Shown: positions 33,665 to 64,000 of the stretch, in pieces
Position numbering within the stretch: the first letter of the stretch is position 1
Layout of the letters: each line of letters starts with the position of its first letter
Origin: Diacronema lutheri
Lineage: Eukaryota; Haptophyta; Pavlovophyceae; Pavlovales; Pavlovaceae
NCBI GenBank assembly: GCA_019448385.1
Contig: JAGTXO010000033.1
Location: forward strand, 355,474 to 419,473
Direction of reading: 5' to 3'
DNA: 64,000 bases
Program-made: the position numbers and the translations under genes
Notes under the pieces: model-generated
Seen by the model: the letters and a program-made list of their open reading frames with translations, nothing else
What the model was told of the DNA's origin: nothing
Databases searched by the model: none

Positions 33665-33697
<33 letters not shown>

Positions 33698-41729: not shown

Positions 41730-41760
<31 letters not shown>

Positions 41761-41967: not shown

Positions 41968-42305
41968 CTGGACGTCGAGCGTGTGCGCCTTGTCCGCACG
42001 TGTGCACTCACGTGCGTCTGCGGCGATCTGCCCGGCGTAGTAGTCCGCGCGCGCGGGAGCCGCGTCGGCAGTAGGAGCAGGATAACGTACTTGCGCCTGA
42101 CGAGGACGGCGAGAAGTGCGGCTTTTCGCTCGGGGTCTACCATGCCGCCGAGGTTGGCGCTGGCGCGCGTGAGGCAGTCGGAGCGCGCTGGGCCCGGGTT
42201 GAAGGCCTCACCCCGGGGGACGGGAGGATTCAAGGCGCCGAGCCGCTGCGGGTGCGGCGGGAGGCCCCGGGCGGGTGTGCTAATGCGGCTCGATGGCCGC
42301 CTGCC

Positions 42306-42345
42306 GGGGGGGGGGGGGGGGGAGGGGGGGGGGGGGGGGGGGGGG
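42306..42345. repeat. Poly-G tract (17 G, A, 22 G)
   Basis: Forty bases, all G except one A at 42323. It has strong G-quadruplex potential and would stall many polymerases. Confidence 0.9.
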
Positions 42346-42747
42346 CGTTGGGCCGCCCGCGGAAACGGAGGTGAGCGTGTGGGAGCGGCGCGCGTCGGCG
42401 CGCGCGGCTGGCGTGCAGCACGGATAAGTCTTGTGTGGACTTCGCGGGGCGGATCCCGGTGCAGGGATTGCCGACGTAGGCCGCGAGCGCGAGCAGGGCG
42501 GGGATGAAGACGGATGATGGGGTTGGGGCCAAGGCCGCCGCACCCGCAGCTATCACGGTGGCAGCGACCGCCACGGTCAGTGCGAGGCTCGCGTGGCCGC
42601 TGCGCGGGCAGCTCGCCCGCCAGGTCCAGGAGGGCCGGCCTGCGGCCTCAGTGCCCAGCGTTGGGCATGTCAGCGTCTGCGTCTGCGGGCCCGCCACTGC
42701 GATGGCGCATTGAGCCTGGCGCACCAAAACGCAATCGGTCCGCCGAT

Positions 42748-42748
<1 letters not shown>

Positions 42749-42788
<40 letters not shown>
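42749..42788. repeat. Poly-G tract (40 G)
   Basis: Forty consecutive G bases, the longest homopolymer in the window. The true length may differ. Confidence 0.9.
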
Positions 42789-44156
42789 CGAGGCGTGCGC
42801 GGGGGCTTGGGGTGGGCTCCGGGTGCCGGCGCTGTGCCAGCGGCGGGCTTGGTTGACGCCGTCTCGCCGGGGCCCTTGCGCCTTGCGGCGCGAGCGTCGC
42901 GGAGGGGCGTCGGCTGCGCTGGCTCCGCGTCGGCGGTGGCGTGGGGCAGGCTCTTGTGGAGGGCGGAGCGCTCGCGCACGAGTCGGTTGCCAAGGCGGGC
43001 TGTCTGCGTGCCGTTGGGCTGCGCTTGGGCAGGTAGGACCTGCGGCCTCGGGGGCGGGCGGGTTTTCGTGTTGGGCCAGGCGGCAACGCGCACCGGCCGT
43101 GTTCGCGGCCGGCAGGCGGACGTCCGCAGCGGGGCGGAGAATGCGGGTGAAGCGCTTGCACGGGCGCGGTTCGCACCTGGCGGCCAGGCGATCACGAACC
43201 GTTGGGTCGCCCGGCTGTTTGGTGGAGCCGAGGGCAGCAAGGATAGCGAGCTTGGCCGCCTCATCGGTGACGAGCGGCACTGTTGCCCAGCTCTGTACCT
43301 CGAAGCCCTGGATGTGCAGGCGTCGGGGAAGTTCCCGGCAGCGTCGCCTGCGTCCGTCGAGAGGCGGACCGAAGTCGCGCCCGTGCCCCCGTTGGCGACA
43401 CCGAGCTCTCGCTCGTTCACACCGGCCCGCCGACGCGGGCGCGTGGTGCGCGCGCGTTGGGTGCGTGTCTGCCTCGAGCAGCGTGCCCAGTCGCAGTGTG
43501 GGCGCGTGTCCGTCTGCCTCAAAACGCCACGTGGAGGGGAAGGCGCGGGGCGGGCTCGCCGAGGAGGTGCCGCCGCTCGCTGCCACCCGGCGCGGGCTCG
43601 GGGCAGCCGTCTTCGGGTGCCGCGCTCTTCGCGCCATGCACGAACGTTCCGCCGCGCTCGCAGCGCGCGAGCGCACACACAGAGCGCGCGGCGACCCCGG
43701 CGGGGGCAGTGCGTCCCGGTGGCACTCGCGGGCGCGCGCCTGGCCTGGGCGCAGCTGGGCGCGTTGCCGCCCGCGCAGCGAGCCGCCCGCGCGCCTCGCC
43801 GCGCGCGCGCTTCGTCGCACGCGTGCGCCCTGCATGCACGCGCACAGCGCGCGGCGGCTCGGCGCAGTGCAAGGCAGAGCGTGCTGCAACGGTTGCGAGG
43901 GCGCGCACGCGCGGCGCGGCGCGCCCCTGTGTGGTCGCCTGCGCGCGGCGCGTGGTCCGGACGCAGCTCGGTGGCGTGATGCCGTCCGTGCAACACAGTG
44001 CGCGTGAGAGCCGCACGTGCACACCTGCAGTGCAACGCGGCATTGCGCGCGTTGCGTGGGCGGAGCGCGGCTGGATGTGCTTGAGGTCGCGCAGCATGCC
44101 GCGCGCCGCGCGCTGTGCGGCGCAGCGAGTCGGCCATGCCCCTGGTCCTCGTCTCC

Positions 44157-44175
44157 GGGGGGGGGGGGGGGGGGG
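44157..44175. repeat. Poly-G tract (19 G)
   Basis: Nineteen G bases followed by TGGTGGTGG, about 500 bp upstream of the giant Fanzor-containing gene. Confidence 0.9.
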
Positions 44176-44694
44176 TGGTGGTGGCAACCAGGATCCGCCA
44201 GCGCGTGGTGGGCGCCGTCCAACTCCCAGCCAGGATGCGCCCCGTTCTTCCCCGACACTCTCCGTCCAAACCCGCCGCCCAGCCTGCCGCCGCACCCGCC
44301 GCCAACGCCGCCGCGCACCCATCCGCCGAGCTCACCTCGCGCGCGCTCGCGCTCACGCTGCGCGACGAGGCTGCGCAGGCCGGCGCGCGGCCGTGCAGAG
44401 CAGCGCAGGCCGGCGCGCGGCCGCGCGCGCGCGCTCACGTTGCGGCCGCGCAGCGAGCTTTCGCCGCGTCGCAGCCCCTCCGAGCAGCCACGATGCACGC
44501 CCCCGGAGGACGTTGGCCGCGCTCGGAGGCCGCGCTCGGGCGCGCAAAGAGAGGCGGCGCGGGCAAACGAGTAGGCTCGGCGCGCTGGCGGGTCCTGGTT
44601 GTGGGAGAGCGGGGCATTCTCCAGGGCATCATGTAAATTCTCCCAAGTATCATCCGGGCCGCCATCCGGACACTGACGTGCCCACAGTCTGCAG

Positions 44695-47600
44695 ATGGAG
44701 GACTCCGTGAAGGACGCTTTGCCCGGCGGGCGGGGCGGCTCGGACAGTTTCTCGCTGGCCCTCAGCACCATTCTGTCGCCGGGAGATACCCACCCCCACG
44801 TGGTCCCATCCACTTGCCTCATCGCCCTGCTGCGTTACGCGGATTTCGGCACGAGCAGGGTTAGGGTGGGCGACACGGGGTGCTCGCAGCATGCGCTCAA
44901 GGTGGCGCTGCGCAACCTGCGCAAAGCATGCGCGGATGCGGACCGGTTTGGGCAGGTGCTCGTGGTCGTGCTACCGCTCTGCCTCCGCGCGTCCAGCGGC
45001 CTCGTGCACTGGACGGCGGCGTACCTGCTCCTCGCGCCGCCCGCGCAGCGCGGCGCGCCGCCCGGCGCCGCGCTCGCCCTGCTCGCCGATTCGCGCACCT
45101 TGGGCAACGGCGAATCGGCGTACGCCACGGCGGCCGGCGTGCTCATCAAGAAGCTTGCGCAGCGCATCGGCAGAACAGCGCCGCCCATCGATGCCTTCAA
45201 GGCGCCCCCGCAGAGTGGGGCCGCGTGTTGCTTCGCCGCGGCAACAGTCGCGGCCGAGGTCGTGGCGAGCGCATCGACGCTCTACGGCCGCCGCGCGAGT
45301 GTCCTTGTCGACATCAAGAAGGCTTTGGACGCGCGCCTCGCGCGCCTCACGACGGCCGCGTACGAGGAGACCCGCGCGCGCACGCTCCGCGCCGCCATCG
45401 GCGCTCTGCTCGGCGACCGCGCCAGGCGCTTCGGCCCGTTCACCCGCGAGGCCGCGCGGCTCGCCGAGGCCGCGCGGCTCGCCGAGGCGTGCGATGCCAG
45501 TGTCGGCGGATCCGCGCCCGACGGGCTGCTGCAGGCCGTCGAGGCGGCGCTGCGCGCGCCCGACGACCGCATCGCACGCACGGCCGCGCTCGACGCGCTC
45601 ACGGGCGCTGCAGGCCGCGCGCTGTCGACGGCGGCCAGGCCGCGCGGCGCGGCGGCGCCAAGGCCGCCGTCGCGAGCGCCACCGCCGCGTGCGCCGCAGC
45701 GGCGCGCCGCCTCGGCGTGGGGGCCCCGACCATTCAGCAGCCTCGGCGGGGGCGAGGGCGACGGGGACGATGGCGACGCCACCACCGCTGACGACGGGGA
45801 GGGCGCGGAGGACGGGGACGACGACCCCGCGGGCGCGGCGGCTGCGGCGGTGGCGACGGGCACGGCGGCGACGAGCGCGGTGGCGGCGGGCGCGGCGCCA
45901 ACCTCGCCGGCGGCGGCGGACGGCGGTGGCTCGGCGCCGCTCGAACGCCGCTGCGTCTACACTGCGCCTGATGAGGGCGACGCGGACGCGCGCGTGTACG
46001 ACGCCAAGGACCCCGAGCAGCTAAAAGCGGGCAGGGCGCGGCTACGGGCGAACAGCGGGCGCGCGCCCGCCGTGGTCGACACGCTTTTCGCGCACGCGAC
46101 GGGCACGATCGTCACGCGGCAGCGCACGGAGGGCGTGACCGGCGCGGGCATGCACCACCTCGCCGCCCCGACGCAGGGCGCGGGGTACGGTACCGTCGTG
46201 CGGGCCGAGCTGGGCGAGCCCGGCTTCGCGGGGACGACATGGCACATGACGTCGGGCGTGGAGAACCAGCCGCGCGCGGTACGAGCGGCCGCGCGCGCGT
46301 ACGCGCACGACGGCTGGGGCGGCGTGTACAATGCGCACGAGGACTTTGCCGCCTTCGAGGGCTTGCCGCGGCTCGCCGCGCCCGAATCGCTCGCGGCCAT
46401 CGCCGGCGGGTCGGCGGACGCGGTGTTCTGCTGGCGGTCCGGCCGGTCCGTCATCGGCGAGGTGACGACGGTTCACTTCAATGGCGACCGCGCCGCCGCC
46501 ATCGACCACGCGCGGGCGCTGCGCGTCAGGCCCGATTGGCGCTCGCAGCCCAGGATCTACGAGGCGGCGTGCGGCGCGGAGGGCACGGTGCTGCTCGTGT
46601 GGGTCGTGCCCGACCGTCACAAGAACCCGCGGCTGGACTGGGCGCCGATTCTCGTCGTGATCCACCTGCCCGCCGACCCCGACTGGCTCGCGCGCGCCAC
46701 GCCGGCGATCGCGAAGGCGCGGCGCGAGGTCGAGGACGGACGCGCGCGCGCGGAGGCGCGCGGCGTGCCGCAGCACCTCGCCTACACGCTGAGCCCACGC
46801 TTCCGAGGCACCGCGCCGCGCGGAGCCGCGCGCGTGCCGCCGCGCCTCGGCGCGAGCGACGCGCGCGAGGCGCGCGCGCTCGCGGCGCTCGAGCCGGCGC
46901 TCATGTTCGCGCCGGCCTGGCGGCGCGCGGTGCGCGCGGCGAGCCGCGCCCCCGGCAGTGGCGCCGCGGCCGTCGAGCGCGCGCTCGCGCGCCTGCACAA
47001 CGCGCTCGAGCCCGATGACGAGAGCGCGCCCGAGTCGACGCGCGTCGCGCCGCTCGCCGCCGCGCTCGAGCAGTCGGCGGGCTGGCCGGCGGGCACGGCG
47101 CGCATGGCGGCAAGCGTGACCAAGGGCCCCGGCGTCGGAGATGGCGCAGGTGGCGACGAAGTGACCAAAGTGGAGGAAACGGCGAAGACGAGCGGCGACG
47201 GCTGCACCGGCACGCCTCCTCTGCGCCCGGCCGCGCGCGCGGCCGGCGCGGCGGACGACGGAGGGGCGGCGGTCGTGGCGGGCGTCGAGGGCGAGCGCGA
47301 CGCACTCGCCAAGACGGGTGCCGGCGGCTGCGACGACGACGCTCGCGAGCCGCTGTCGGCCGGCAAGCCCGGCGCACTCGCCGCCGCGGCGACCGTCGGG
47401 GGTCTCGGCGAGCTCGTCGGCAGCCTATGCGCGTGGCTGGCGCGCGGCGCGGCTGGCGGCGCCATCGCGGCCATCTCCCCCGGGACGGCCGCGCGCGGAG
47501 CAAACGGCACGCCGCAGCGCGCCGAGCCGCCGGCCGCCGGCGATCCCGTCGCTCCGCACGCGCGCGTCGCCGCTGCGGCGCCCTTGGCGGGCAGCGCGGC

Positions 47601-50600
47601 GGCGCCGTCGTCGGCCGCGCGCGACGCGCAGCGCGGCGTCGCGGGAGTCGACGCGGCCGCGCACGCGCACGCGCGCGACGGCAGGCGGGCGGCACGGCGG
47701 ATGCGCGAGCACGAGGGGGCGGTGCACAGGGCCTTCCGCATGTCCCTCTGGCGCGACGCGACGTTTGTCGAGTTCGTTGAGAAGCTGCGCCCCGACGGCG
47801 GCGCGCAGCTGCTCGCGCGCGAGCCCACGCGGCGCGCGGCGGCGGTGCTGTGCGAGCTCGCGCGCGGCCGCGACGGCGCGAGCGGCGCGGCCGGGCTGCT
47901 GCACGAGATGAGAGCCGCCGATGCGCGCGCGCGCGAGGCCGCCAAAGCGGCGGAGGCAGCGCGGCCTGCGCACGGGACGCTGCGCATCGTGGCAACCGTG
48001 GCGCTGGGCGGTGCGGTCTTCGCCGGCATGTCAGCGCTGGTCGTTGCTTGCGCGGCGCGCACGGCGACCGGTGCGCTTTTTGGGGCCCGCCGCCCGCGGG
48101 CGGCCGCGCGCGGAGCCGACGACGCGCTCGGCACGCTGCAGCGCGCCGAGCCGCCGCCCGCCGACAAGGGCAAGCGCAGGCGCGCCAGAGCCAACGACGA
48201 CCCCGTCGACGCGGCGCGCAAGGCCGTGGGCAAGGCGGAGGGCAACTGCCGCAAGGCAGCCCGCCGGCTGCACCTCGCTGCACTGGGCGAGGAGGAGGCG
48301 CAGCAGCGCGTGCTCGACGCCGAGGCGGCGGAGCAGCTGGCGCGCTCGCGCGAGCCGGCCGGCGGCTGGGTAGGCAGCGCGCGCGCGCGCGCGCGCGCGC
48401 GCCCCGCCGCGCGCGCGCCCGTCGATTGGCGTGCGCGCAGCGCAGAACGGCGCGCCAGCTCCGTCACCTGCGCGCCGCCGCGCCCGTGCCCCTCGCGCGC
48501 AGGGGCGCCCTGCGGACCTGCGGCTGCAACAGGCGCACTTTGGCATGCGCGAAGATGCCGACGCGGAAGTGCGCCGCGCGCACGAGGCGCTGCGCCGGGC
48601 GAGACAGGGTGTGGCGTGCGCCAAGGCCAGCGTGCGGCAGATGGAGGCGGCGTTGCTCAACGCGACGCGCTGCGCCACCGCGGTGCTCGCGCCGCGTGGC
48701 GTGCCGGAGGGTGACGAGCAGGCCGCGGCGAGAGAGCAGGCGGCGCTGGACCGGGAGGCGCCGCCGGCCGCGCAACGCGCGGCGCCGACGGCGCGCTCGC
48801 CCTCGGAGCCGCCGTCCGAGTGGGGCCCGCCAGCGGTCGGCCGGCGCCCGACGCCGCGTGCACTGTCGCACGCCGCGGGTCGCGGGGACGACAACCCGTT
48901 TGCGCCGCTCGCAACCGTCAGCGGCGATTGGTCGCCCACGCCGAGCTCGCGCTCGCCGTCCTCGCCGCCGCGGCAGCCGCCGTCCGACCGCCGCAGCGCG
49001 CAGCGTCGCAGCGCGCGCGCGCGGCCGCCGAGGCCGACCGTTTCGCCCGAGGACGCGCTCGCAGCCGAGCGCCAGGCGCGCGCGCTGTCGGAGCAGGCGG
49101 AGCAGAGGCGCGCCAAAAAGGCCGCCGCCAAGGCCGCGCGCCGCGCCGCGCGCGCCGCCGACAAGCGGACGGCGCGCGTCGTCCACGCGTGCGTAAGCGC
49201 CGCCTTGCGGCGCGTCTGCACGAGCGTCGCCACGGGCACGCCGCTCGCCGTGCTCCGCGAGCGCGCCGAGGGGCCGCGCGCGCCGAAGCCCGCGCCCGCG
49301 CCGCCACGCCGCGCAGCGGACGGCGGCCGCGCGCTCCGCCACGCGCGCCGTGCGGCCGATGCGGCGGCGGAGCGCGAGGCGGCGGTGGCGGCCGACGCCG
49401 ACGAGCGGTTCGAGCGGCAGCCCTCCGCCGCCCGGTTCGACGGCGGCGATGGCGGCGGAGGCGGCCACGTCGAGGCGAGCGCGCGACCGCGCGCCGGCGA
49501 GGCCGGCGAGGCTGGCGCGCACGGCGCGCCTGGCGCAGCGGGGCCCCCGGCGGCGTCGCTCGCGTCGCGCAGCCCGTGTGATGCGCGCCGCACGGCACGC
49601 CTCCCGCACGCACGCGCCGCAGCCACCTGCGCACGCAACGGCGGCTGGGGTGGCAACGTCGGCGGCGACGTGTGCGGCGGTTGTTTCGGCGGCGGCGGCG
49701 TCCGTCGCGACGCCTGCGGCGGCGGCGACGCCACCTGCGGCTGCGGCGATGGCGGCGTCGGTGCTGGCGCTGGCGAGGCCCCTGCACACGGTGCGCCGGC
49801 GCGCGCGACGGCGTCGCGCTTGCTGCGCTTGCTCGGCGCGCCACGCGCCGTGCTCGGTGCGATGGCGCACGCCGCGGCCGTGTTGGCGCGCGGCGTGGCC
49901 GCAGCCGTCGCTGGCGTGCGCGCCGCCGCGCGCGCCGTGCGGCGCGCGCGCCGCCGAGCGCCTCGCGCGCGCCGCACGGCTGCGCGGCGGGCTCGCGGCC
50001 CGCCGATGCGCGACGTCGACGGCGCCCTGCGGCCCTCGCCGTCCTGGTTGCGCACACGCCTCGTCTGCGGCCGGCGCCTCGCGCCTCTGCGCCGCGCGGG
50101 CGCGCGCCCGCCGCCCGCACACGCCGCGCCGAGTTCCCGCGCGCGCGCTGCGCAACCCGACAGCGACGCGCCGGCGTGCGCGCCGCGGCGCTCGGCGCCT
50201 GTCGGTGCGCCGCCGCGCGCGCGTGGCCTGCGCGCGGCGCGCGCACGGCGCTTCCTCGACGTCGCCGGCCGCGCGGCGCGGAGCGCGCGCCTCGGCGCGC
50301 GCATCACGCGCCAGCGCACGCCGGGTTCGCCATCGGAGCCCTGCACGGCCGAGAGCGGCGACGGCGCGGGCGCCGGCGGCGTCGGCGCGGCGGCGCCTGG
50401 CGCGGCGACGATGCGCGCCACCGGCGCGCGCGCAGCGCGCGCTGCGGCGGCGGCGGTCGGTGGCGCCTCGCGTCTCGCGCGCCGCGCGATGGCAAGCGCC
50501 GCCGCCGCTGCCACCTCCATCGCCGGCGCTGCCGCCTCCACCGTCGCCGCCGCCGCCGTTGCCATCGGCGCGGCCGTCACGTCACCGGCGTTCGCCGCGG

Positions 50601-52950
50601 CGCGCGGCATGGCGGCCGCATGCGTCGCTGCCTGCGCCCGCCCCACCGCCGCGCAGGCGGCCGCGTCGCGCGCGCTCGGCGCGCTCTTCGTGCTCGTCGA
50701 CGCGGCCGACGCGGCGGGCGACAGCGACGCCGCGCTCGGCGCGCTCGCGGCCGCGGTCGACGCGACGGAGCTGCGCCCGCCGCCGGCCTTTTGGCGCGCG
50801 GGCCGCGCCGCGGCGTACGCACCGCGTCCGCCGCCCCTCGACTCGGCGCGGCCGCGCTACAACCGGCGCGCGCGCGCACCTAGCCCTCCCGTCGCGGCCG
50901 CGCGGCGCAATCTCGCGCGCGCGGTGCGCGAGCTCACGCGCGCCGCGCGCGCTGAGCGCGAGCGCGCGCCGGCGCCGCGCGGCGCGCGCGGCGGCGTGCT
51001 CCACGCGCTGCGCGCGTCGCTCCCCGTGCACGCGCGTGCCGCGCTCGGCACGGACGCGGAGCTGCGCGCGGACATCGCCGCGTTCGCGCGCGCGCGCCGC
51101 GAGCTGCACAGCCTCACCGACGCCGAGGTGGCGGCGCTCGCGCGCCCGGACGGGCCGCCGCTGCCCGTGCGGCTCGCGTGCACGGCGGTCGCGCGCGCGC
51201 GCGGCGTGACCGTGCTGCTCGACATCGTGCCGCGCGGCGGCGGCGCGCCCGAGCGGCTCGTGTGCCGCGCCCGTCGCCGCGGCGCCGCCACGCGCACGCC
51301 ACGGCCGACAGCCGCCGTTATCGCGCGCGCGCCTTGCATAGCGGCGCGCGTTGGCCACACTGAGCCGGCGCGCGCGTGCGCGGGCGGATCGATCGGGGTC
51401 GCGCGCCTCCGTTCAGCGCGCCGCCGCTCTTGGCGTGGGGCGCGGCTCGACGTGCACACCCGCGAGCGGCTGGCCACACCGGTGCCAGGCCACGTCGTGG
51501 CCTGCGCCGCCGCCTCGGCCATCGGCGCGTGCGTCGCTCGCGCGCGGCTTGGGCTTGCACGGCTGGCGCGCGCGTGGCCCTGCGCCTCCGCTCCACTGGC
51601 CGCTGCTGCTGTCGCCTTCGCGCCTGCCGCCGACGGTGTTTTCTGCGCCCCGCTGGGCGCTCCTGCATCCGCCTTCGCGCCTGCCGCCGACGGTGTTTTC
51701 CCCGCCGCACTAGCCGCTGCTGCATCCGCCTTCGCGCCTGCCGCCGATTTTCCCGCCCCACTAGTTGCTCCTGCATTCGCCTCCGCGCCTGCCACCGACG
51801 GCGTTTTCCCCGCCCCACTAGCCGCTGCCGCTGCCGCGTCCGCGCCCGCCGCCGCGGGCGCGTCTTCCGCCCCACCAGCCATCGCCGCCGCGCCCGCCGC
51901 CAACGCGCGCACCGCCAACGTGCCCGTTGCCAACGAGGCTACCGCCACCGAACCAGCCGCCCTTGAGCTTCCCCTCCAACCCGCCAACTCGGCGCTGCTT
52001 GCGTGGGCGGGCGACGCGGCTGCGCGCCGGCTGGCCGCCGCCGCCGCGAGCGCCGGCCTCCCGCAGGCAGAGGTGGAGCGCATCGCCAGCGGCGACATGC
52101 TCGCCTCAACCGTCGACGCGTGCTGCGAGGTCGTGCTGCGCGTGCACGGGCAGGCCGGCGGCGGGCATGTCTGCCACGTGCCGCTCGCCGCGCAACCCGC
52201 GGTGTTTCAGGACGACGCCGAGCGCGCCGCGCTGCTGCACCGCCTGCGCAGCGAGGCGACAACGCAGGCTGTCATCGGCGTGTGGAGCCCGTCGGACGAG
52301 CGCGGCGGCGCGGGCGGTGACGACGGCGCGCAGCTCGCCTCCGGCCATTTCACCGCGTTGCGCCTTGTGCGCGTCGCGCGCGCGGGCGAGCATCGCTACG
52401 ACGCGGTGCTCGTCGACACGCTCGCGTCGCCCTGCAGGCAGGCGCTCATGCTCGCCAAGGCGATAACTGCCACGCTGCACGCGGCGGGTCTCGACATTTC
52501 GCGCGTGCGCCGCGCGCTGCTGCTCAACGAGGCGGCGCAGCGTGGCGCGACGTGCGGCCTCGCGATAGTGGGCGCGCTCAACGACGCGCTCGCCGCGGCG
52601 GGCTGCTCGTCCGCGCCGCGCACGTTCAGCGTGGCGGACATGTACGCTGTCGGCGAGCGCCTCCGCGTCGCGCTGACCGGCGCGGCCAGCGATCGTGCGC
52701 CGGGCGGCGTCTGCGCGGTCACGAGCGCGGTGCGCGGCGGGGGCAGCCCCGATGGCGCCGAAACGCCGCCGCAGACGCGCGGCGCCAAGGCCGCCGCTGG
52801 CGTCACCGCCGCCGCCACCGCCGCCGCCACGCCGCCGCCGCCCGCGCTGGGCGCCGCCGCCGCCGCCACCGCCGCCGCCGCCGCTGCTGCCGCCGCCGTG
52901 GCCGCGCCGCCACCGCCGCCACCGCCGCCGCCGGCCGGCGACGCGGGCGA

Positions 52951-53020
<70 letters not shown>

Positions 53021-56000
53021 GCCGCGCGCACGTTCTTGAAGCTCGCGCCCAGGGCGCGCGCGGCCGCCTCGGCGCGTGAGGCGTTGCGCGCCGCGTGTGC
53101 GCGCGCGGACGCGGCGGCGTCGTCACACGCGTCGGCGCCGCACGCGCCCGCCGGTGCGCGCCGCCGGCGGCGCGCGGGCGCAGGCGAGCTGGCGCTCGCG
53201 GCTGCGCGCGCGCTCGCCTCGACGGAGCACGGCGATTTGACGGACGACGCGCTCGAGGCCGCCGTCGAGCAGGAGCTGGGCGACGAGCGCGGCCAACTGC
53301 TGCTGTGCACGCGGGGCGCAGCGGCGCAAAGGCCCGCGCTTTGCCGGCTCCTGAAGCACGCGTGCGCGTCGGCGCGCGCGGCGAAGCGCGCGCAATTCAC
53401 GGTGTTCGTCGTGCGCGCGGCCACGCGCGGCGAGCGGGGGGGCGCCGCCGCGAGGCGCGTGGACTCGGTGGTCGAGCTGTCGTGCGCGCTGCACGAAAAG
53501 GCGGGCGCGCTCGGCGGCCTCCAGAGCGTCTGTGTGCGTGGCTTTGCCCTCGAGCGCCGCCGGACACTCGACGGTGGCGCCGAGGCCGGCGCGTCCGCCA
53601 TCGGCCAGGACGAGCAGGTCGAGGCAGAGGCGGGCGAGGCGTCCGTCGCCGGCGTGACGATGGCCAAGCAGCTGCGTCAGTTTGCCGAGCAAGCTGCCCG
53701 CGACGACGTGCTCTTCCGCGTCGCCGTGTCCGAGGCCGACGCCCACGCCCGGCTGGCGCGCGTTGCGGGTGACGATGTCGGCGCGTACAGCGTCGTGCTC
53801 GCAGTCGCCGGGCTCGTCTGGCTGGCCAAGGCCGACGAGGTTGCGCCGGCGGCCGCCCGGTCCGCCGCCGCGCCGCCCGCCGCCCCGCCTGCTGCCGCCA
53901 CGTCCGCCGACGCCGAGCGCGACGCCTCGCCTTCCGACCGCCTGCGCGCGCTGACGCTCGCCGTGCGAGTCGCGCTCGCGCGCGGCGTGCTGCGCCACCT
54001 CCTCGCCGACGCGTCGCCGGGCGCGTCCGCGACCGCTGGCGGTAGTTGCGCGACGCCCGTCGAGGCGGCCGCGTCCGACGCCGCGCCGCCCGCCACGGGC
54101 GTCGTGACGAGTGGCGTCGCGGCGGGCGCTGTGGCGGCCGCACCGGCTGCTGCGGGCGGTGCGACGGCGGGTGCATCGCCCATCACGCGGCCGGCGAAGC
54201 GCGCGCGGCGCACGCTCACCGCCGCTCCAGCCGCCTCGGCCGTTGCGGCCGCTGGAGGCGCACGCGCTGGCGCACGCGGCGCGGCCGGCGCGCCTCGCGC
54301 GCGCGCCGCGCGCGCGCCGGCCGAGTACGTCTGGCTTGCCATCGCGCGCCGGATGCTGGCGGCGCGACACGCGGCGGCCGCGGGCGGCGACTTTGTCGCG
54401 TCGTGCGTCGCCGCGATGCAGGCCGAGTACGGCGACGGCTGTGCCGTCGTCGTCGGCGACGCGCCTGATGACGCCTTGGTCGAGGCTGCGGCGGCGGCGC
54501 TGCTCGAGGGCAAGCACGCGGCGGTGAGCCTCGGCTGCGTCGACCGGCCGGCGGTGCTCGTCGTGCAGCGCGCCGTGGACGCGCCCACGTCGCGCGTGCA
54601 CGGGTGGTGCGCGCACGCGGCGGGCGCCGCCGAGTTTGACGAGGGCGCCGCGCACGGCGTGTTCAACGCGATCGTCGAGCGCGCGTGGGCGCTGCGTCCG
54701 GACCCGGCTGACGGCAGCCCGCCGCCCACGCGCACGTGGGAGGTCGAGCAAATCGCTGGCGACGCGCCCGACCAGGCGGGCATGGCCGCGCTGCGCGTGC
54801 TCTACGCGCTCGTCGCGGCGCACGGCCGCTACCGCTCGGCCGCCGCGCTCTTTGGCGCGCTCGCGCAGCTGCACGCGCCCGACGCCGCCGGCGCGCGCGC
54901 GGAGGTCGTCGCGGCGGCGTGCGCGGTGCCGCACGGCGCGCGGCCGGGCGCCGCGCCGGCGGCCGCGCGGGACGACGCGAGGGAGCGCGCATGGGAGGGC
55001 GCTCAGATCGCCGCGCTCGCCGTCGGCGCGGACGCTGCGCGCAGGCGTGTCGCGCCCGTGCGCGCGCTCGTCGACGCGCTCGGCACGCCACCGACCTCGG
55101 CGATCACGGGCGGGCCGGCGGTCCGGCTCGCGGGCGCGGGCGACGGCGGCCACGGTGCACGGTGGGTGGGCGGGCAGGCGGCGACGCCCGCCGAGCAGCT
55201 GCCGAGGGAGCTGCTGCGCGCCTACCACGAGGCGGTGCTGTGCGTCACGCCCGGCAGCCTCCAGCTCGGCCCGGCGGCGCTCGACGCGGTCACGCGGCCG
55301 CGCGAAAACGACACGCTGGAAGGCCTCCTCGCGCGCGTCAGCTGGCAGTGCGGCGCGAGGGCGAGCACGTGCGCCATGCTCGCCACGTTTTCCGAGCAGG
55401 CGGGCACCGGCTCGCGCGTCGCGCTCAAGGCCCTCCGCACGAGCTCCGACCTGGCCGGGCTGACGGCGGCTGCGGTCGGGCAGCAGGCGCCGCAGACGCC
55501 GCCGCCGCCGCTGCTCGTGATGCTCGGCCGCTGCCCCAGCCCGCTCGTCGGCGGCGGCCTCTTCCCGCCCGACCGCGCGACGGGCGAGCCGGCGGTGCAC
55601 GCGGCGACGTCCGAGCTCGCCGTCGAGCTGCTGCGCGACGCGCGCGCGCTGGCCGGCACGGACGGGCGGCTCGTCGTGCTGTGCCTCGAGGCGTCCAACC
55701 CGCTCTGGTTCTGCCCCAAGGTGCGCGAGCTCGAGCTGCCGCGGACGCGGTCGGACGGCGTGCGCGCGTCCGGCTGCACCTGCCCTGCGACGTGCAGCGA
55801 TGCGCGCGGCGCGGCGGGTGGCGCTGCCCGCGGCGCATCGACGCGGCCGGCGGCGCGCGCGATCAACAAGGCGGTGCTCGACCACTTCGTCGCGCTTTTC
55901 GGCCGCGAGGGCTTCGCGACCTTTGAGTTTGCGGGCGGCGGCGAGGCGAGCTGGCTGTGCGACAGCGCGGCCGGCACGACGACCGTCGCGGCGTGCGCGT

Positions 56001-59000
56001 CGCTGCCGCCGCGCATGGGCGATGGGCAGCTGGCCATCCGGCGGCACACGCTCGGCACGGGCGCCGACGCGCCGGCGCACGCCGTCGTCTCGCTCCGCGT
56101 CGCGCACGTGAGCCACGCCATCCGCCGCGCGGCGGACGACGGCGGCGCGCGCGCCGAGCGGATGGCGCGCGCCGCGCGCGCGTTCTGCGATGTGGCGGCC
56201 GCGCTGCGCGTCGACGCGATCCTGGCGGAGGTGCCCGAGGACCGCCCGACGGGCACGCCCTTCCTTGGCGGGCTGCTCAAATGTTGGGACAAACGCAACG
56301 GGAGCTGGACGGCGCCAGCCACGCTCGCGCTCGGAGACGTGCGCGAGGTGGCCAAGCGGACGGCCGACGCAGCGGCCGGCCGAGCGGACGAGGTCCCTGC
56401 GGCTGGCCGTCCGCAGGTCGCGGCGCGCGCGTGCGCTGGCGCGATTGGCGGCGGCGCGGGCGCGGCGGGCGCCTCGGACGCTGCGCCGCGTGCACTGGCG
56501 GGCGCGTCGGGTGCGCGCACGGACGGCGGCCCTGCCGACGCACCGCGCCAGCTGGAGAGCCGCTACGGCGAGGCGAGCAAGCTCGACCTACCCCAAGATT
56601 CCACTACGGGCCGCGTCCTCGACGCTCGCGAGGCCCAGGACCGCGCGCGCGTGCCTGCTGCGCCCGACGGCACAGCGCTGCGCCGCGTGCTCGACGCCGT
56701 CGGCGCGGGCGCGCCCGCGCAGCGCAGCCCGCGCTGGCACGACGAGCGATGGGAGGAGGTCACGGGCAGCAAGGTTGGCGACGTCGTGAACGACAACGCC
56801 GGCGTCGCGCACGAGACGCTCACCGACGAGTACGTGCACCGGCGGCGGCGCGAGGTGCGGACCAAGGCGACGACCGCGGGCATCCTCGGCGAGGCCGTCG
56901 CGCTGCGCAAGCTGGCGGCCGCGTACGGCATCACCGTCGTGTGCAACCTGCCGATGGTGCGTGCGGACCCGCACGACAAGAGCGCGCCGTTCGCCTTCTC
57001 GCCGGACGGGCTCGCCATCCTCCCCGAAAACAACGAGCAGGTCCTCGTCGAGGTGAAGACGCTCACCAAGGCGGGCGCCACGGCGCACGAGGACGGGCCG
57101 CCGCAGCCGCACCGCGATCAGCTGCAGCTCGGCATGCACGTCCTCGGCGTGAGCAAAGCGCTCTACGTGCAGTACCTCAGGCACGAGGACCGGATCGTCG
57201 TGCACGTCGTGACGCGCGGCGCCGGCTGGCTTGCATTCGCGCAGCCGAGGGTGCAGGCCTTCTGGGCGCGCGTCGTCGAGCGGCGCGCGCGGCTCGAGCG
57301 CGCGCGCGCCGACCACCCGGCTGCGAGCCGGCGGCACCGGCGGCAGCAGACGCCGGCCGGGCCGCCGCTCGTGCTCGCGCTGGACGGGCGCATCCCCGCC
57401 GCGCGCGCCGCCGCGCTGCACGCCGTCGCGCACGGCACCGCGAGCGCGGCGGCGGTGACGGCGGCGGCGGCGACGGGCGACGCGACGGCGTTGCAAGACG
57501 CGATCGCGGCGCTGCGCGCGCCCGTCGGCAATGCGGCGATCGACAGCGCAGCGCGTGCGGAGCGCGCGGCCGTCGAGCGGGCGATCGCGTACCTCGGGCA
57601 GCCGACAGGCGACGCCGCCGCCCGCGGCACGGCCGAGGCGGCCGAGGAGGAGAGGACGGTCGACGCCGACATCTGCGCGTTGCTGCACCAGCTCGGCGCG
57701 AGCGTGGCGCACGTGCACGTCGAGGACGCGGATTGCGTCACGCGTGAGCACTGGGGCGGGGCGGTGCTCGCTGCAGCGGGCGACCCGTCGAGCGCCCCCG
57801 CCATTTCGAGCGTCATCGTCGCGCACATCGTGCGCCTCGCCGGCTTTGGCGTCGAGCTCCCGCAGTCGATTCGCGTCGCCCCCAGCACGGCCGACTGGCA
57901 CGAGGGCTGGCTCGACGTGCAGTGCGTGCTGCTGCGCACGCGCCGGCGCGGGCGGCGCGACGACGACTTTGTGGCCGTCGTCAGGCGCGGTGGGCGCTGG
58001 TTTGCGTGCGAGCCCGGCCGCGCGCGGCGGCTGCAGTGGCGGTCGGTCCTGCGCCGCGCGCGCGGCGGCGTCGACGGGACCGGCGAGGAGGCGTTCGCGG
58101 TCGTCTACGTGCGGCGCGGCGACGCGGCCGGCGACGCGGCTGGCGACGCGCAGGCCGAACGGGCGCGCGGCGGGCGCGCGCGCAGGCGCACGCGCGGCGG
58201 CACGCGCAAGCGCAAGCGCGGCGCCTCCGCCGGGCTCGAGGCGGCCGCGCCCGCCGGCGCGCCGGCGGGCGCTGCTCACCGCCCGCCCGCCAGGCGTGCC
58301 ACGGTCGCCGCGCGCACCACGCGCTCTGTGACCGACGCGCGGCACTCGGCGCCTGCCGCCACGGTTGCACCTGTCTTCGACTGGCGCGCCGGCCGCCCGC
58401 CCCCTGCCGCCGCCGCCGCCGCCAAGCGCGGCCAGGCGCTCGAGCCGGGGCAGTTCGCGCGGCCGCGTGGGCGCGCGCCATGGGGCAAGGTCTGGGACAG
58501 AGTCTCGGGTGCGTGGGCGGACAAGCCGACTGGTGCTGCCGTCGCCGCCGCGCCGCCGCCGCTGCCGCCCGCCGCCGCGCCGCCGCCCGCCGCCGCGCCG
58601 CCGCCCACCGCCGCGCCGCCGCCCGCCGCCGCGCCGCCGCCCGCCGTCGCGCCGCCGCCCGCCGCCGCGCCGCCGCCGCCGCCGCCACCGGCGGCGCTCG
58701 GCCGCCGGCAGCACGTCGGCGCGGGCGGCAGCGCGGCGGGCCGGCGGCTCGCGGCCATCGCACGGCGGCAGCGCGGCGTGCGCGCGCCGCCGCCCGCCGC
58801 GCGCTTCCTCGCCACGCTGCCGCCACCGCCACGCGACGGCCTCGCGCGCACGAGCAAGCAGGCGCGCGCGAGGCGCAACGCGGACGGACGGCCGGCGCAC
58901 GCGCGCGCGGCCAACGCGCGCGCCTTCTACCGCGGCGTGGAGCTCGGCGTGCACGCGACGCGCGCCATCGTCGACGCGCGCCACGCCGACCTGCCGCAGG

Positions 59001-62000
59001 CCGTCTTCGTGGCGGAGGCGCGGGCGATCGTCGCGCGCTCCGCCGGCGGCGGCGCGCTGCTCGCGCCGGACGACGTGCGCGACCTGTGCGACGCGCAGAC
59101 GGACGCCGATCGCGCTGCGATCTGGGCGTCGGTGGGCGCGCACGAGGCGACGCGCATCTTCGCGCTCGTCACGCGCAACGCGAGCTTGGCGGGCGCGGCG
59201 CTGCTCGTGCTGCACACGCCGGCGGGCGCGCCGGCGCGCGCGCTCGGGCTCGTGGCGACGCGCTCGCGCGCGCCGTCGACGGGCGCGCCGCGCGACGCGC
59301 ACAGGGCGCTGGTGCAGCGGTTGGACGTGCTGATGGACGCGATCGCCGCGGCGCGAGGCGTGTCGCCGCTCGAGCTCGAGCTCGCGCTCGCGCCCGAGCC
59401 GCAGAGCGCGTGCAACGCGCGTGCGGCCGCGCTGCTCTGCCTGCAGGCCGTCGCGGACGCGAGCGGCCGTCCCGCCGCTGAGGACGCGCTGGCCGCGCTC
59501 GACGACGCGCGCGGCATCGACCGGCACTGCCACGCCGTCCGGCAGCAGATCGAGGCGAAGCTCGCGTGGCGGCGCGCCGACGGCGCCGTCGGCGTTGACG
59601 GCGCCGACGGCGCGCCCGCGCTCGCGCCTGCCGCCGCACCGCCGGCGTGCGCGCCGGCGCACGCTGCCGGCGAGGCGGCGGTCGACCAGGCGATCGTCAC
59701 GCGGGTGCGCGACGCGCTGCGCGCGTGGGCGACGACTGGCACCGCGCCCAGCGCGGCGGTGCTCGACGACGCCTGCGCCGCGTACACGGCCCGCGCACGC
59801 GCGCGCAAGGACGCGCGCACGGCGCTGGGCCCGACGCGCGCGGCCGAGCTGCTCGCCGCGGCCGCGCGCGGCGGAGCCGACGGGGCGGATGCCGCGCGCG
59901 CGCTGCTCGGCGGCACGCCGCGCCTGCTCGTCGTGCTCCTCTGCGTGCCCGTCGCCGCGCCGTCCGGCGAGCCGCCGCGCCCGGTCGGGCTGCTCGTCGC
60001 CGACCGGCCGACGGACGACTCGCGCCCGGCCGCGCTCGTGCGCTACGACTTTGCGCCGCTCGACGCGGACGTGGCCGTCGCGGTCGGCGCGCATGCCGTC
60101 GCGCTGGCCAGTGCGATCTGGCCGCTGCTCGCGGCCGAGGGGGAGCCGCGGCCATCGCCCGTCGTGCGCTCGCAGCCGCGCGGCGGCGACGATGGCGCGC
60201 GTGCGCTCGCAACGTTCGCGTGCCTCGACGCGCTGATGACCGCCAGCGTCGGCGCGCACGGCCTCGCGGGCGGCGCGGGCATGCTGCCCGCGCTGGTCGC
60301 GCGAGGCGCCGCGGCCGCCCAGCGCGAGCGGCAGCTGCGCGCGGCCGCCGAGAGGCTGGGCGGCACGGTCGCTGGGTGGCCGGACACGGGCGCGAGCGCG
60401 GCGGGCGCGAGCGTCGACGAGGAGGCGCGCACGTACGAGGTCGAGGCGGTCGTCGACGAGCGCCGCAAGGCGGGCAAGAAGGTGACGTTCCAGTTCCGGA
60501 TCAGGTGGCGGGGCTACGACGAGAGCGCCGACACGTGGGAGCCTGAGGCCAACGTGAGCAGCGACCTCGTCGCCCAGTTCCGCAAGACGCGCGACGAGCA
60601 GAAGCGGCGCGCGGGCGTATCGGGCAGCGGCAGCGGCGGCGCGGGCGCGGCGTCGGCATTGGCGTCGGCGCCGCTTCGCGCGCACGGCGAGTCGGGCGCC
60701 GCGGGCAAGCGCGCCGCGGCGGGTGCCGCCGCGAGCGCGCGCGACGCCGCGGGCGCGCGCGCGCCGAGCGTTCCCCGCGCGCGCGGCGTCGAGCGCGCGC
60801 GCGTGGACGAGCCCGCTGCGCCGAGCGCGCGCGCCGCCGGCGGCGCGACGGCGCGCACGCGCGTCAGCGTGCTCCCGGGCTTCGTGGTCAAGCGCTCGAC
60901 GCTCAACGCGGGGCCGCAGGCGGTGACGGCGCAGCCCGGTGCGCGGAAGGAGCTGCGGCGCATCGCGGCGGCCGTGCACAGGCTCACGACACAGGCGTAC
61001 CGCGTCATCAACAAGGTGGTGCGCGACGAGGCTGCGGTGGCGAGCGCGCAGGCCGTCGGCGCGGCGTCGGGCGGCCCGTCGACCAGCGTGCACACGTCGA
61101 CCACGATGGACAAGGGAACCGTCCGTGCGATCTTCTCGGCCATCGGCTGGCACAAGGACGAGAGCACGTACGGTGCAGCGCCCCGAGGCAAGCCCGCCGA
61201 GCAAGCCGCCGCGCAGACCAAGGCGGCGACGGCGCGCGCCGTCGGCGAGATGGCCGAGGGCGTCCAGCCCGTCTGCGCGGTGGGCCTCACGGAGATCCTC
61301 GAGGCGGAGGCGACGCAGGTGTCCACCGCGTGCCTGATGCATCCATCGCGCGTCGTGAACGGGCTGCTCCGCGACGTCGTCCGCGCGGCAGTCGAGCGCG
61401 ACGAGGCGCTCGTCGCGCTGCCCGAGATGCAGCGAAACGCGCGCGTGCGCGAGCTGTGCGAGCGGCTGCTGCGCGGCGACGTGGAGGGCGCGCGCGTCGG
61501 CTGCCCCGCCGCGCTCGACCGCCACCTGCCCGACATGGTCCTCCACAAGATCGACTACAAGTGCACGCCCACGAAAAGGTGGAACTACGACCGGCACACG
61601 ACGCGCTACTTCCTCGTGCAGATCCGCACCCTGCAGCACGTGGCCGAGGGGCAGGCGCTGCTCTGCCGGCTCGCGCACATCCACACGCAGCTGACCGGAC
61701 GGCCGCCGCGGTACAATGTGGCGCCGCTGCGCACGCACAATGTGCGCGCGAGGCGTGGCTGCCGCTGCCGCCGCCGAGCGCCCAAGCGCGCGCGCCGCCG
61801 CCGTGCGCGCCGCCCCGCGGCCAGGTTGGTCACGCGCCCGCGCGCTCGCGCGCCGCGCGCTGCGCGCAGGTGCCGCGCAACGTGCGCCTCGCCGCGAGCG
61901 CCATCTGGGTGACGCTTTCGGATGACGAGCGCAAGGAGCTGCGCGCGCGGCTCAAGGCGCTGGACCTGCGCGACCACGATGGCGAGCCGATCAAGTGGAC

Positions 62001-63597
62001 AGGCACAAACGGCAACACCCCGCCGATGTCGGACGTGCGCGTCAGGTACGCGGTCTTTGCGACGCGCTTCGACATCTCCAACCGCGTCTTCGACTACGCC
62101 GGGCGCGAGCGGCCGCCGGCCGATCTGCCGTGGCACGCGCGGCGCTCGTGGGTTGGCCTCGCGCCGCTGCCGCGCGTGCCGCTCCCGGGCCGGCAGCCCG
62201 TCAAGTCGGTGGTGACAGATGGCGTCGCCGTGCACGCCGTCGGGACCGTCCTCGTGCCGAAGGCGCAGGCGCCGGCCGGCGGCTCGGGCGTCCTGCACCG
62301 CTGGCGCCGGCCGGACGGGCGCATCGCCGTCGCGCTCGGCTCCGAGCTGCGGCGGGCGATCGACGTCGAGGCGGCGGTCGTCGTCGCGGCCGACCCGAAC
62401 ATGGGCAACATCACCACCTACTCTGCGCACGTCGGGCGGGCGGCCGTCTGGCGGCAGTTCACGCAGCGCGCGCGCGCGCGCGCCGCGGGCTTTGCGCGCG
62501 AGACGGCCAAGACCAACGCGGCGCGGCGGCGCGTGCGCAAGGACGGGCGCGGCGAGGAGTTCAGCGTGGAGGCGGACGAGGCGCGGCTTGGCGAGGCGCA
62601 CAGCGCCAAGGTGCTCGGCGAGGGCGAGTTCCACGCCTTCCACCGCGAGAGCGCGCGGGTGCGCGAGCGCGCCGCCGAGCACGTGTACGACGCGCCGGCG
62701 CGCCGGAAGGAGCGCTGGCGGCGCGACAGCGGCGGGCGGTCCAACGCGGCGCGCGTCGCCGAGGCGCTCATCGCGGCGCACTGTGTCGACGGCGTGACGC
62801 GCGACCGGCTGCTCGTGTGCGTGGGCAAGTGGCTGCGCGACCACAAGGGCGCGCAGCCCAAGGGCGCGCCGCCCGCCTTCCAGGTGGGGCTGCTGCGCGA
62901 GCTGCGGCGGCGCGGCGTCGCGGCCGTCTTCGTGCCCGAGCCGTACACGTCGATGCACTGCTCGATGCCGCGGCTCGCCAAGGGCGGCAGGCTGCAGCGC
63001 TGCGGCGCGGAGCTCGCGCAGAACCCGCGCCTGCCCGTGGCAAAGGGCGGCACGCGCACGGTGCACGCGCTCGTCATCTGCCCGGCGTGCAACGGCGGCA
63101 AGAAGCCCGTGCACCGCGACTACAACGCCGCGCGCAACATCTTCTACGACGTGCACGACATGGCGGCGCACGCGGCCGGGCGCGACACCACGTCGACGCC
63201 TGAGCGCTTTGCCCTCGTGCTCGCCTGGTGGGCGCGCGGCGAGGTGTGGGAGCGTGAGGAGCGCATGGTGCACGGCGAGGGCGACGACTGCGACGACGAG
63301 TGCGACGGCGACGACGAGGGCGACGACGAGGGCGACGACGACGACGACGACGATGGCAGCGGCGACGGCGGCGCGGCGGCGAGGGCGACGGCGACGGCGA
63401 CGGCGACGGAGGCGGCGGCGGCGACGACGACGATGACGGCGGGGGAGGGCGGCGGCGGCGACGGCGGTGGCGACGACGGCGGCGGGCGCGGCGGCGGTGG
63501 CGGCGGCGGCTCTCGCGCCCGCACCCCCGCCCGCGGAGCTGCCAGCGCCAGTGCCGGCGGCGGCAGCGCGCGCGGGCCGAAGCGCGGCCGGCGTTGA
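44695..63597 (+). CDS. Giant Fanzor-containing multidomain protein (predicted 6,213 aa)
   Basis: Model: exon 1 44695-48369, exon 2 48503-61741, exon 3 61870-63597, all joined at codon boundaries. Intron 1 (133 bp, GTAGGC...GCGCAG) joins two halves of a coiled coil (AEQLARSREPAGGW / GRPADLRLQQAHF). Intron 2 (128 bp, GTGCGC...GCGCAG) restores the Fanzor motif NVAPLRTHN/VPRNVRLAASA. Domains by approximate residue: C48-like protease 95-190; an unrecognised globular region 420-700; a transmembrane helix 1097-1120; a coiled coil 1160-1280; a Pro/Ala linker; C48-like module 2 2440-2600; degenerate C48-like segments near 3310, 4860 and 5100; YqaJ nuclease 3964-4158; chromodomain 5200-5260; Fanzor 5346-6080; an acidic then Gly/Arg tail. 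A single protein is inferred only from open frame and splice phase. It could be several genes, or a polyprotein cut by its own protease modules. Confidence 0.55.
45001..45237 (+). other. C48 (Ulp1-like) cysteine protease module 1
   Basis: Within the giant protein, LVHWTAAYLLLAP gives His105, LALLADSRTLG gives Asp132, and PQSGAACCFAAATVA gives Gln173 with Cys178/179. The order H-D-Q-C and the Gln-to-Cys spacing match Ulp1/SENP-type proteases, which cleave SUMO/ubiquitin-like linkages or, in viruses and transposons, their own proteins. The usual DCG around the cysteine is ACC here. The call is by eye. Confidence 0.5.
51614..51830. repeat. 57-bp tandem repeat, about 4 copies
   Basis: Units starting GCCTTCGCGCCTGCCGCC begin at 51614, 51671 and 51728 (period 57), with a shortened spacing to 51779. 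They encode AFAPAADGVF-type blocks in the linker before the second protease module and keep the frame. Confidence 0.85.
52340..52600 (+). other. C48-like cysteine protease module 2
   Basis: GHFTALRLVRVA supplies His (about residue 2507), YDAVLVDTLASPC supplies Asp (about 2530), and NEAAQRGATCGLAIVGALN supplies Gln (about 2571) and Cys (about 2576), followed by Gly as in the DCG motif of Ulp1-type proteases. It looks catalytically complete and is the best of the protease-like modules in the giant gene. Confidence 0.55.
52952..53018. repeat. (GCC)n microsatellite coding for poly-alanine
   Basis: An uninterrupted run of about 22 GCC triplets inside the giant gene, encoding part of a long alanine tract directly after the second protease module. 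Confidence 0.9.
56717..57300 (+). other. YqaJ-type viral recombinase/exonuclease domain
   Basis: The domain starts RSPRWHDERWEEVTGSKVG. It has the family's GILGEAVALRKL helix, the metal-binding Asp in FAFSPDGLAIL (about residue 4060), ExK in QVLVEVKTLTK (Glu about 4075, Lys about 4077), and the downstream glutamine in RDQLQLGMHVLGVSKAL. This PD-(D/E)xK fold is found in phage and giant-virus recombination exonucleases (YqaJ/lambda-Exo type) and in some large eukaryotic transposons. All expected catalytic residues are visible. Confidence 0.8.
58561..58690. repeat. 18-bp Pro/Ala tandem repeat
   Basis: About seven GCCGCGCCGCCGCCCGCC units (one with ACC, one with GTC) encoding alternating PPP and AAA, a linker in the giant gene. 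Confidence 0.85.
60421..60606 (+). other. Chromodomain fused upstream of the Fanzor
   Basis: TYEVEAVVDERRKAGKKVTF, then FRIRWRGYDESADTWEPEAN and VSSDLVAQFRKTR form a complete chromodomain. It has the first aromatic (Tyr) of the methyl-lysine cage, the WRGY turn, and the TWEP motif before the C-terminal helix. In Ty3/gypsy retrotransposons and other factors this domain binds methylated histone H3 tails and steers insertion to particular chromatin. It is about 85 residues from the start of the Fanzor region. Confidence 0.9.
60863..63240 (+). other. Fanzor (eukaryotic TnpB-like) RNA-guided nuclease region
   Basis: The N-terminal part starts VLPGFVVKRSTLNA and has a helical segment with ELRRIAAAVHRLTTQAYRVI. 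The bridging motif NVAPLRTHN/VPRNVRLAA is rebuilt by removing intron 61742-61869. The RuvC core is complete: VVVAADPNMGNITTYSA (Asp codon at 62392), VFVPEPYTSMHCSM (Glu codon at 62938) and HRDYNAARNIFYDV (Asp codon at 63118). A lead-in VCVGKWLRDHKGAQPKG matches the conserved segment before the second RuvC motif. Cysteines in MHCSM, LQRCGAEL and VICPACNGG form the zinc ribbon typical of TnpB/Fanzor. Fanzors cut DNA guided by a small RNA encoded next to the gene. All three acidic residues are present, so the nuclease looks intact. Confidence 0.88.
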
Positions 63598-64000
63598 CGC
63601 ACGGCCGAGCCGCGCAGCGGTCGACGCTTTGCGGGCTCTGCCAGGTCGCGCGCGGCTGGCGACGCGTGCCGCGCGCGGCACGACCGTGCACGCCGCCCAC
63701 CCGTGGCCGAGCGCGCCGCACCAGCCGGCCCGCTCCAACCGCCGTGCGGATCACGGACGCTCGCTACGGCTCGTCGGCGCGCGTCACCTGCGCCGGCGGC
63801 CACGGCGCCGTCTGCTCCGGCCTCGTCGCGAGCAGCCCGACCGCTGCTCGCCGCCCGCACGCCGCCGCAGCAACGCTGCGCGTCGTGCTCCCCCGCTCGC
63901 CAAACGCGAAGAGCTCCCTCACAAGGACGTCCTTCCGAACGGCCCGCGCTGCACTCGGGGCGCGATCGTGCCCCTGATCGGATTTGGCTTGACCATCTAT
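63598..64000. other. Region downstream of the Fanzor stop codon
   Basis: No gene is supported. It contains an 18-base perfect palindrome, CGTGCCGCGCGCGGCACG, at 63665-63682, about 70 bp past the stop. In TnpB and Fanzor loci the guide RNA is usually encoded at or just beyond the 3' end of the nuclease gene, so this interval is the natural place for it. No direct evidence is seen. Confidence 0.3.

Follow-up and report, generated by a model that had tools for sequence, protein, structure and literature searches.

A giant coding frame ending in a Fanzor nuclease lies in a ~31 kb interspersed repeat of the alga Diacronema lutheri, a putative recently amplified DNA transposon

In the marine alga Diacronema lutheri, a giant coding frame that ends in a Fanzor nuclease occupies the right part (positions 44695-63597) of a ~31 kb interspersed repeat present in at least 146 copies. 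The frame was studied in a stretch of 64,000 nucleotides of contig C13 (355474-419473; hereafter the window, whose numbering is used throughout), and genome searches covered the 43.49-Mb, 103-contig assembly. On balance, we favour the reading that this giant gene serves as the main gene of a Fanzor DNA transposon that is giant (~31 kb), was amplified recently and supplies the guide RNA from its right end. Its product would be a single protein of very large size or, at the minimum, one combining a nuclease, a chromodomain and the Fanzor. A preliminary description had reported this domain unit and set it against the stand-alone Fanzors that are carried by transposons; the unit is confirmed in part, but it had been missed that it is one copy of a mobile element, and the contrast fails because the giant gene appears to be transposon-borne as well. 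The gene would thus be more ordinary than had been thought, as a transposon gene, and less ordinary in its transposon, which would be giant, very successful and the carrier of a Fanzor-nuclease-chromodomain fusion. Fanzors are eukaryotic RNA-guided nucleases, and their benefit to the transposons that carry them is unsettled.

The copy number comes from a genome search with the chromodomain of the giant gene, in which 150 of 260 candidates were scored; 146 of the 150 belong to the element family by score, with nearly the same chromodomain score throughout (C30:607158, C5:1019290, C69:981566 and C69:982265 were left out), and 146 is therefore a lower bound. In DNA searches, all 40 scored places (this copy included) stood at a printed 100% for 44000-44600, and 34 of 40 (again with this copy) reached the full score for 48150-48750. 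The window and eight other copies share a left junction and 13 copies share a right junction, with differing flanks; left ends had been sought in 12 other copies at extrapolated coordinates, where eight were found and four missed. TATA precedes the element at all nine left junctions (window included) and CTATA at eight of them, and CTATAC stands at each of the 13 right ends. Both ends could be located in eight copies, and they lie 30.9-31.1 kb apart in every one. Provided that the majority of copies are of full length, about a tenth of the assembly would belong to this family. Moreover, contigs C1, C3, C12, C13 and C26 start or stop at the right end of the element, as assemblies do at repeats.

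Some variation around this pattern was also noted. By end coordinates, two copies look like shorter variants of ~26 kb (C5:895653 with C5:921068, and C9:1930403 with C9:1904994). At loci L016 and L017, the left halves show 89-99% identity along with deletions and an inverted segment, and the right half at L017 (contig C86) is 99.65% identical to this copy, a pattern that suggests exchange between subfamilies or assembly chimaeras. As candidates for an empty site, four matches spanning the joined flanks of eight copies were rejected, being ends of short repeats (GTTAGTAT...) clustered near TATA. Short repeats ending in GTTAGTAT likewise cluster near TATA together with the giant element at L055-L061, and several repeat families seem to share a TATA target.

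The giant frame is real and longer than chance gives. Chance frames are long at the 72-85% guanine plus cytosine (GC) found here: under an order-2 Markov model, the longest frame among the three averages 1,112 codons. However, the stop-to-stop frame that contains exon 2 has 4,512 codons, against a maximum of 2,156 in 200 such simulations, and the two remaining frames there contain 34 and 19 stop codons. Third-position GC is at least 0.85 in 20 of the 21 600-base windows from 48901 to 61500, the exception being 0.72 at 51301, and its contrast with the other codon positions is weak at 49.5-50.7 kb. Its phase in exon 1 gives way to a second one in exon 2 and returns in exon 3, with shifts near both introns. 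The three open segments of the preliminary description, joined by two GT-AG introns, were found in the sequence as described, with 0 internal stops; both introns are in phase 0 because the exon lengths are multiples of three.

The two junctions differ in their support. At the start of exon 3, where the window reads AG/GTG, four distant homologues (P0005-P0008) begin with the first codon of the exon (xPR, shown with V in one and with M in three), and a near-identical homologue, P0004, begins four codons later. A shared acceptor would be the simplest reading of this common start, and a shared GTG start is improbable for a eukaryote. As for exon 1, the stretch of intron 1 is 2 bases longer in five of 40 scored copies, a difference that arithmetically brings the first two exons into a common frame. 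A frame of 5,753 codons is indeed seen in one of the five, on C75; the frames of two others, on C14 and C4, have only 1,290 and 2,461 codons and must therefore be broken elsewhere. Frames of at least 5,300 codons occur in 7 of the 146 copies. Exon 1 is thus likely attached, be it via an intron or through the length of a repeat alone. The claim of a single protein accordingly stands in part: a frame with nuclease, chromodomain and Fanzor is supported at the DNA level, whereas the full product of 6,213 residues is a prediction that additionally requires the uncertain intron 1.

The Fanzor at the end of the gene looks complete, as had been described. The TNB domain (PF07282) scores 28.5 bits against a cut-off of 26.3, the D, E and D of the RuvC triad could be placed by eye on alignments, and the zinc-ribbon cysteines lie in MHCS, RCG and CPAC. 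A search with exon 3 in a set of 5.8 billion proteins returned five relatives among 8,000 candidates scored, one 99% identical and four 39-47% identical; the latter (P0005-P0008) are called as proteins of 271-674 amino acids. No relatives were found on viral contigs. A chain of profiles links the family of exon 3 (A1) to known Fanzors indirectly: A1 matches A2, another Fanzor family of D. lutheri, at L051/L052, with 98.2% probability in hhalign (E 3.5e-14), and A2 matches the Spizellomyces Fanzor 8gkh (E 1.8e-5). When the end of exon 2 was joined to exon 3, the alignment to A2 spanned the junction (96.5%, E 9.3e-10). By itself, the part in exon 2 reached 3.2%, so the assignment of a probable N-terminal part leans on the neighbouring exon 3 match.

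Further Fanzor families of D. lutheri were seen at L051 (C9:378200-388199), L052 (C86:1017400-1027399) and L002. The Fanzors of L051 and L052, 43% identical to each other and both distant from that of the giant gene, are C-terminal in frames of 1,681 and 1,412 codons. They resemble the giant gene in this position in a long frame, but no other Pfam domain accompanies them.

The nuclease upstream of the Fanzor, previously described as a YqaJ nuclease, is supported as a domain of the lambda-exonuclease/RecE type by a match to a RecE-like PHROG (E 5.7e-15) and by its motifs, GxxGE, PDG, ExK and Q, which we take to be those of the PD-(D/E)xK nucleases. No annealing partner protein for the exonuclease was found with PHROGs. 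The chromodomain, also reported earlier, lies well above its Pfam cut-off. Since exon 2 alone carries the nuclease domain, the chromodomain and the probable N-terminal part of the Fanzor, the presence of all three in one coding frame is well supported at the DNA level. Protein searches with regions of exon 2 gave no matches, the candidates being limited by length and possibly swamped by alanine-rich words. The membrane helix of the preliminary description corresponds to one candidate in exon 1, from hydropathy only. The features are listed in Table 1.

Table 1. Features of the giant gene and of the element that carries it, in window coordinates
Feature	Position	Strand	Remarks
~31 kb mobile element, this copy	32945..64000	+	shared junctions with differing flanks; final few bases past the contig end
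Left subterminal palindrome, 18 bases	32992..33009	.	sequence
~870 bp imperfect palindrome	34945..35813	.	self-comparison; 91% identical to its own reverse complement
PIF1-like helicase gene	36313..38717	+	Pfam PIF1 and Pif1_2B, two frames
USP/UCH-type deubiquitinase-like open frame	39819..41312	+	Pfam UCH, 33.5 bits (cut-off 23.9)
Giant gene, exon 1	44695..48369	+	ATG at 44695; 1,225 codons without internal stop; no recognised domain
Candidate membrane helix, exon 1	47989..48054	+	hydropathy only
Putative intron 1	48370..48502	+	GT-AG, 133 bp, (GC)n tract inside; uncertain
Giant gene, exon 2	48503..61741	+	4,413 codons without internal stop
Lambda-exonuclease/RecE/YqaJ-type nuclease domain	56711..57286	+	profile matches; motifs GxxGE, PDG, ExK, Q
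Chromodomain	60434..60586	+	Pfam PF00385, 45.9 bits (cut-off 25.1)
Probable Fanzor N-terminal part, in exon 2	60869..61741	+	joined exon 2/3 alignment over the junction
Intron 2	61742..61869	+	GT-AG, 128 bp; interrupts the Fanzor; homologue-supported
Giant gene, exon 3	61870..63597	+	575 codons and stop; Fanzor RuvC, zinc ribbon, then acidic/Gly-rich tail
Fanzor RuvC and ribbon motifs	62386..63141	+	D in AADPNMG, alternative E in PEPYTS, D in HRDYNAARNI
Right end, predicted site of the right-end (guide) RNA scaffold	63598..64000	+	putative RNA role

If the giant gene is the main gene of a Fanzor transposon, its mode of action may be outlined as follows. The right end of the element, which begins at the Fanzor stop codon ~400 bp from the junction, would be transcribed as the right-end RNA of the Fanzor, and the adjoining flank would act as the guide. 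The target-adjacent motif (TAM) of such a system is the motif beside the left end of the element, here predicted to be (C)TATA. In line with the proposal made for TnpB transposons, empty sites adjacent to CTATA would be cut by the Fanzor, and repair of the break from an element-bearing copy would keep or multiply the element. Resection of the break would fall to the exonuclease domain, and recruitment of the protein to marked chromatin to the chromodomain. A recombination-type exonuclease in the frame of the Fanzor would fit a resection of the cut. For Fanzors and TnpBs, a right-end RNA, a guide adjoining the transposon end and TAM recognition have been described (PMC10711439). Cutting of the sister chromosome by TnpB has been described as a way for the element to copy itself, and the same has been suggested for Fanzors (PMC10432273). 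The TAMs CATA and TTAA are known for Fanzors (PMC11423790), and (C)TATA would be similar in kind. With many different flanks as guides, one scaffold and one predicted TAM, and with at least 146 recent insertions in a small genome of a culturable alga, the element makes such a sequence of cutting, resecting and copying directly testable.

Several observations weigh against the favoured reading. RuvC-I of exon 3 reads DPN rather than DPG (the homologues have DPG in P0006-P0008 and DTG in P0005), the best direct match of the exon 3 family in PDB is weak (Cas12f1, E 0.011), and AlphaFold gave a poor model for this exon, with a predicted local distance difference test (pLDDT) score of 46.6. The putative right-end RNA (63598-64000) does not fold better than shuffled sequences (z -0.97), and no Rfam match was found within it. 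The nuclease domain lies below the cut-offs of both NCBIfam TIGR03033 (E 1.4e-6; 28.5 bits, cut-off 68) and Pfam YqaJ (15-19 bits, cut-off 22). The PIF1 helicase in the left part is split between frames in all ten copies inspected (window included) in spite of the amplification; the Pfam matches of its two frames overlap in the DNA, which indicates a frameshift and not an intron, and the split may reflect either a lesion passed on among the copies or a systematic error of the assembly. Finally, present selection on the frame is not demonstrable, the ratio of nonsynonymous to synonymous substitution rates (dN/dS) between copies being 0.83-2.3. For exons 1-3, dN/dS is 2.06, 1.06 and 0.83 in the C46 copy (98.3% identical) and 2.3, 1.2 and 1.8 in the C86 copy (99.65% identical), where changes are few. 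As the copies are young and drifting, with little divergence, nothing follows from this about current selection. The evidence for a past coding function lies in the codon periodicity and the intact motifs. Length changes were also compared. Exons 1-2 of the C46 copy carry six, of which four are multiples of three and two (-29 and -4) sum to -33, several of them within tandem repeats; in exon 3, three of its four changes have lengths not divisible by three. In the C86 copy, exon 2 has one in-frame and six 1-base insertions, and exon 3 has nine changes.

Other readings of the frame itself have to be weighed. High GC might make two or more same-strand genes look like one frame, an internal promoter giving rise to a stand-alone Fanzor, with or without the chromodomain, and to a separate nuclease. 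We regard this as possible, though doubtful. In-frame methionines, residues 3912 and 3927 of exon 2, directly precede the chromodomain, the two other Fanzor families of the genome lack a further Pfam domain, the homologues P0005-P0008 are called as short proteins, and chance frames are long at this composition. However, the frame and its third-position GC run unbroken from 48.9 to 61.5 kb apart from the one low value, the frame exceeds the longest of the simulated ones, and the short homologues begin exactly where exon 3 has its acceptor, the start that a gene caller made for prokaryotes would be expected to choose at an intron. The preliminary description had instead seen two C48-like protease modules in the gene and raised a self-cleaving polyprotein that releases the nuclease and a chromodomain-Fanzor. 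The modules could not be confirmed: neither the three exons nor their slices match C48 (PF02902), and none of the nine matches of a genome-wide C48 profile search lies in this copy. By eye, a His...Asp...Cys spacing is present at 45004-45231 and 52343-52561, and a single-sequence model of the second region, which is poor (pLDDT 45.4), places a strand after the His, a strand ending at the Asp and a helix starting at the Cys, an order that we take to be that of C48 proteases. In a fold comparison with this poor model, the rows were filled by a helix bundle (model residues 142-205), with no cysteine protease among them. When compared with a C48 protein of D. lutheri by sliding windows (without a positive control), the two regions scored 8.2-9.8 and the best window elsewhere in the giant protein 14.6, the probabilities of the printed windows being <1%. 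Among 15 pairs of six regions picked by eye, two beat all 15 shuffles (B-F, 18.4 vs 15.9; E-F, 16.6 vs 16.5), regions E and F having been picked in the present analysis; the two modules described earlier (A-B) reached 17.2 against a shuffle maximum of 17.6. With no protease that could be shown, the polyprotein loses most of its basis and appears scarcely credible.

The nature of the element has alternatives of its own. Its insertion enzyme may act in trans. No transposase, integrase, recombinase or Rep was found in this copy (Pfam on 20 left-part frames, PHROGs on ten of these, and the giant gene). It could be a Helitron (Helitron2 group) or another rolling-circle element that acquired a Fanzor and is now mobilised in trans, a reading that we consider unlikely. 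The PIF1 helicase, the palindromes near both ends (on the right a short GGGGC-GCCCC stretch at 63957-63974), the target preference and the lack of long inverted repeats would suit it, and a Fanzor is known in Helitron2 elements of Chlamydomonas (PMC3627910). However, no Rep (HUH) domain joined to a helicase was found in the frames of this copy that were searched, and the only Helitron_like_N match in the genome, at L064 (C63:35738), is partial (profile 73-163 of 191) in a frame of 326 codons. A comparison of the outermost 100 bases at one end with the outermost 122 at the other also showed no exact inverted repeat of 7-12 bases. Integration at a short crossover CTATA by a tyrosine recombinase, as in Crypton-like elements, would explain the same five bases at both ends, and two of the 16 Phage_integrase matches in the genome (C17:194914 and C69:95472) lie 22-25 kb ahead of the Fanzor of a copy and could lie inside variant copies. 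This too has little probability, given no tyrosine recombinase in this copy, 16 matches for at least 146 copies and two recombinase offsets that differ by 3 kb. That the repeat is dead, its frames being relics or artefacts of the assembly, is very unlikely: the split PIF1, the abundant single-base length changes in the copy that lies at a contig end on C86 and frames below 2,500 codons in 28 of the 146 copies speak for it, but 102 of the 146 keep frames of at least 4,000 codons and the active-site motifs of two nucleases are present. Finally, it is a long shot that no classical transposase is needed, a giant protein with Fanzor, exonuclease and chromatin reader cutting flank-matching CTATA sites and the element being copied by break repair. 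Such transposase-free copying, if true, would explain at least 146 near-identical copies without a recombinase gene.

Among known systems, the Fanzor1-bearing eukaryotic DNA transposons, which include Helitron2 with hairpins at both ends, resemble the element in that a TnpB-like RuvC protein rides on several kinds of DNA transposon (PMC3627910). They differ from the present element, which is ~31 kb long, has its Fanzor in frame with an exonuclease and a chromodomain, and lacks a recognised transposase in this copy. The D-E-D RuvC, with its alternative Glu ahead of the zinc ribbon, and a short A/T-rich TAM, here predicted, are shared with characterised Fanzors (8gkh; PMC11423790, PMC10711439). 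However, these have about 500-800 residues, whereas the present one forms the C-terminal end of a frame that runs to thousands of codons; it has DPN in place of DPG and is related to 8gkh only via the L051/L052 family. The exonuclease domain resembles phage lambda-exonuclease/RecE/YqaJ proteins in its PHROG match and motifs but sits in what would be a eukaryotic transposon protein. Giant eukaryotic transposons, namely Polintons, Teratorn, Terminons, giant Gypsy-like elements and Helitrons, are likewise large elements with accessory genes (PMC6431247), and the word Fanzor is absent from the available text of that paper. The fusion appears to be new, as had been supposed: in the literature searched, including the available parts of PMC3627910, PMC6338049, PMC10432273, PMC10711439, PMC11423790 and PMC6431247, no chromodomain-Fanzor or exonuclease-Fanzor fusion was found described. 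The genome paper of D. lutheri reports 22.9% repeats, and its available text has no word beginning with 'transpos' (PMC8379373).

In the left part of the element, the ~870 bp palindrome sits in the least GC-rich part. The deubiquitinase-like frame has recognisable Cys and His boxes, and such a frame is present at L017 too. The frames neighbouring the Helitron_like_N match at L064 are short. Outside the element, window positions 1-2164 and 13259-15420 form a ~2.2 kb inverted repeat, 97% identical, with relatives near C78:522-529 kb, and a 1 kb repeat at 10190-11216 recurs with 88% identity at no fewer than 34 other genomic places. A long minus-strand frame at 2945-9079 has a WD40 repeat match barely above the cut-off.

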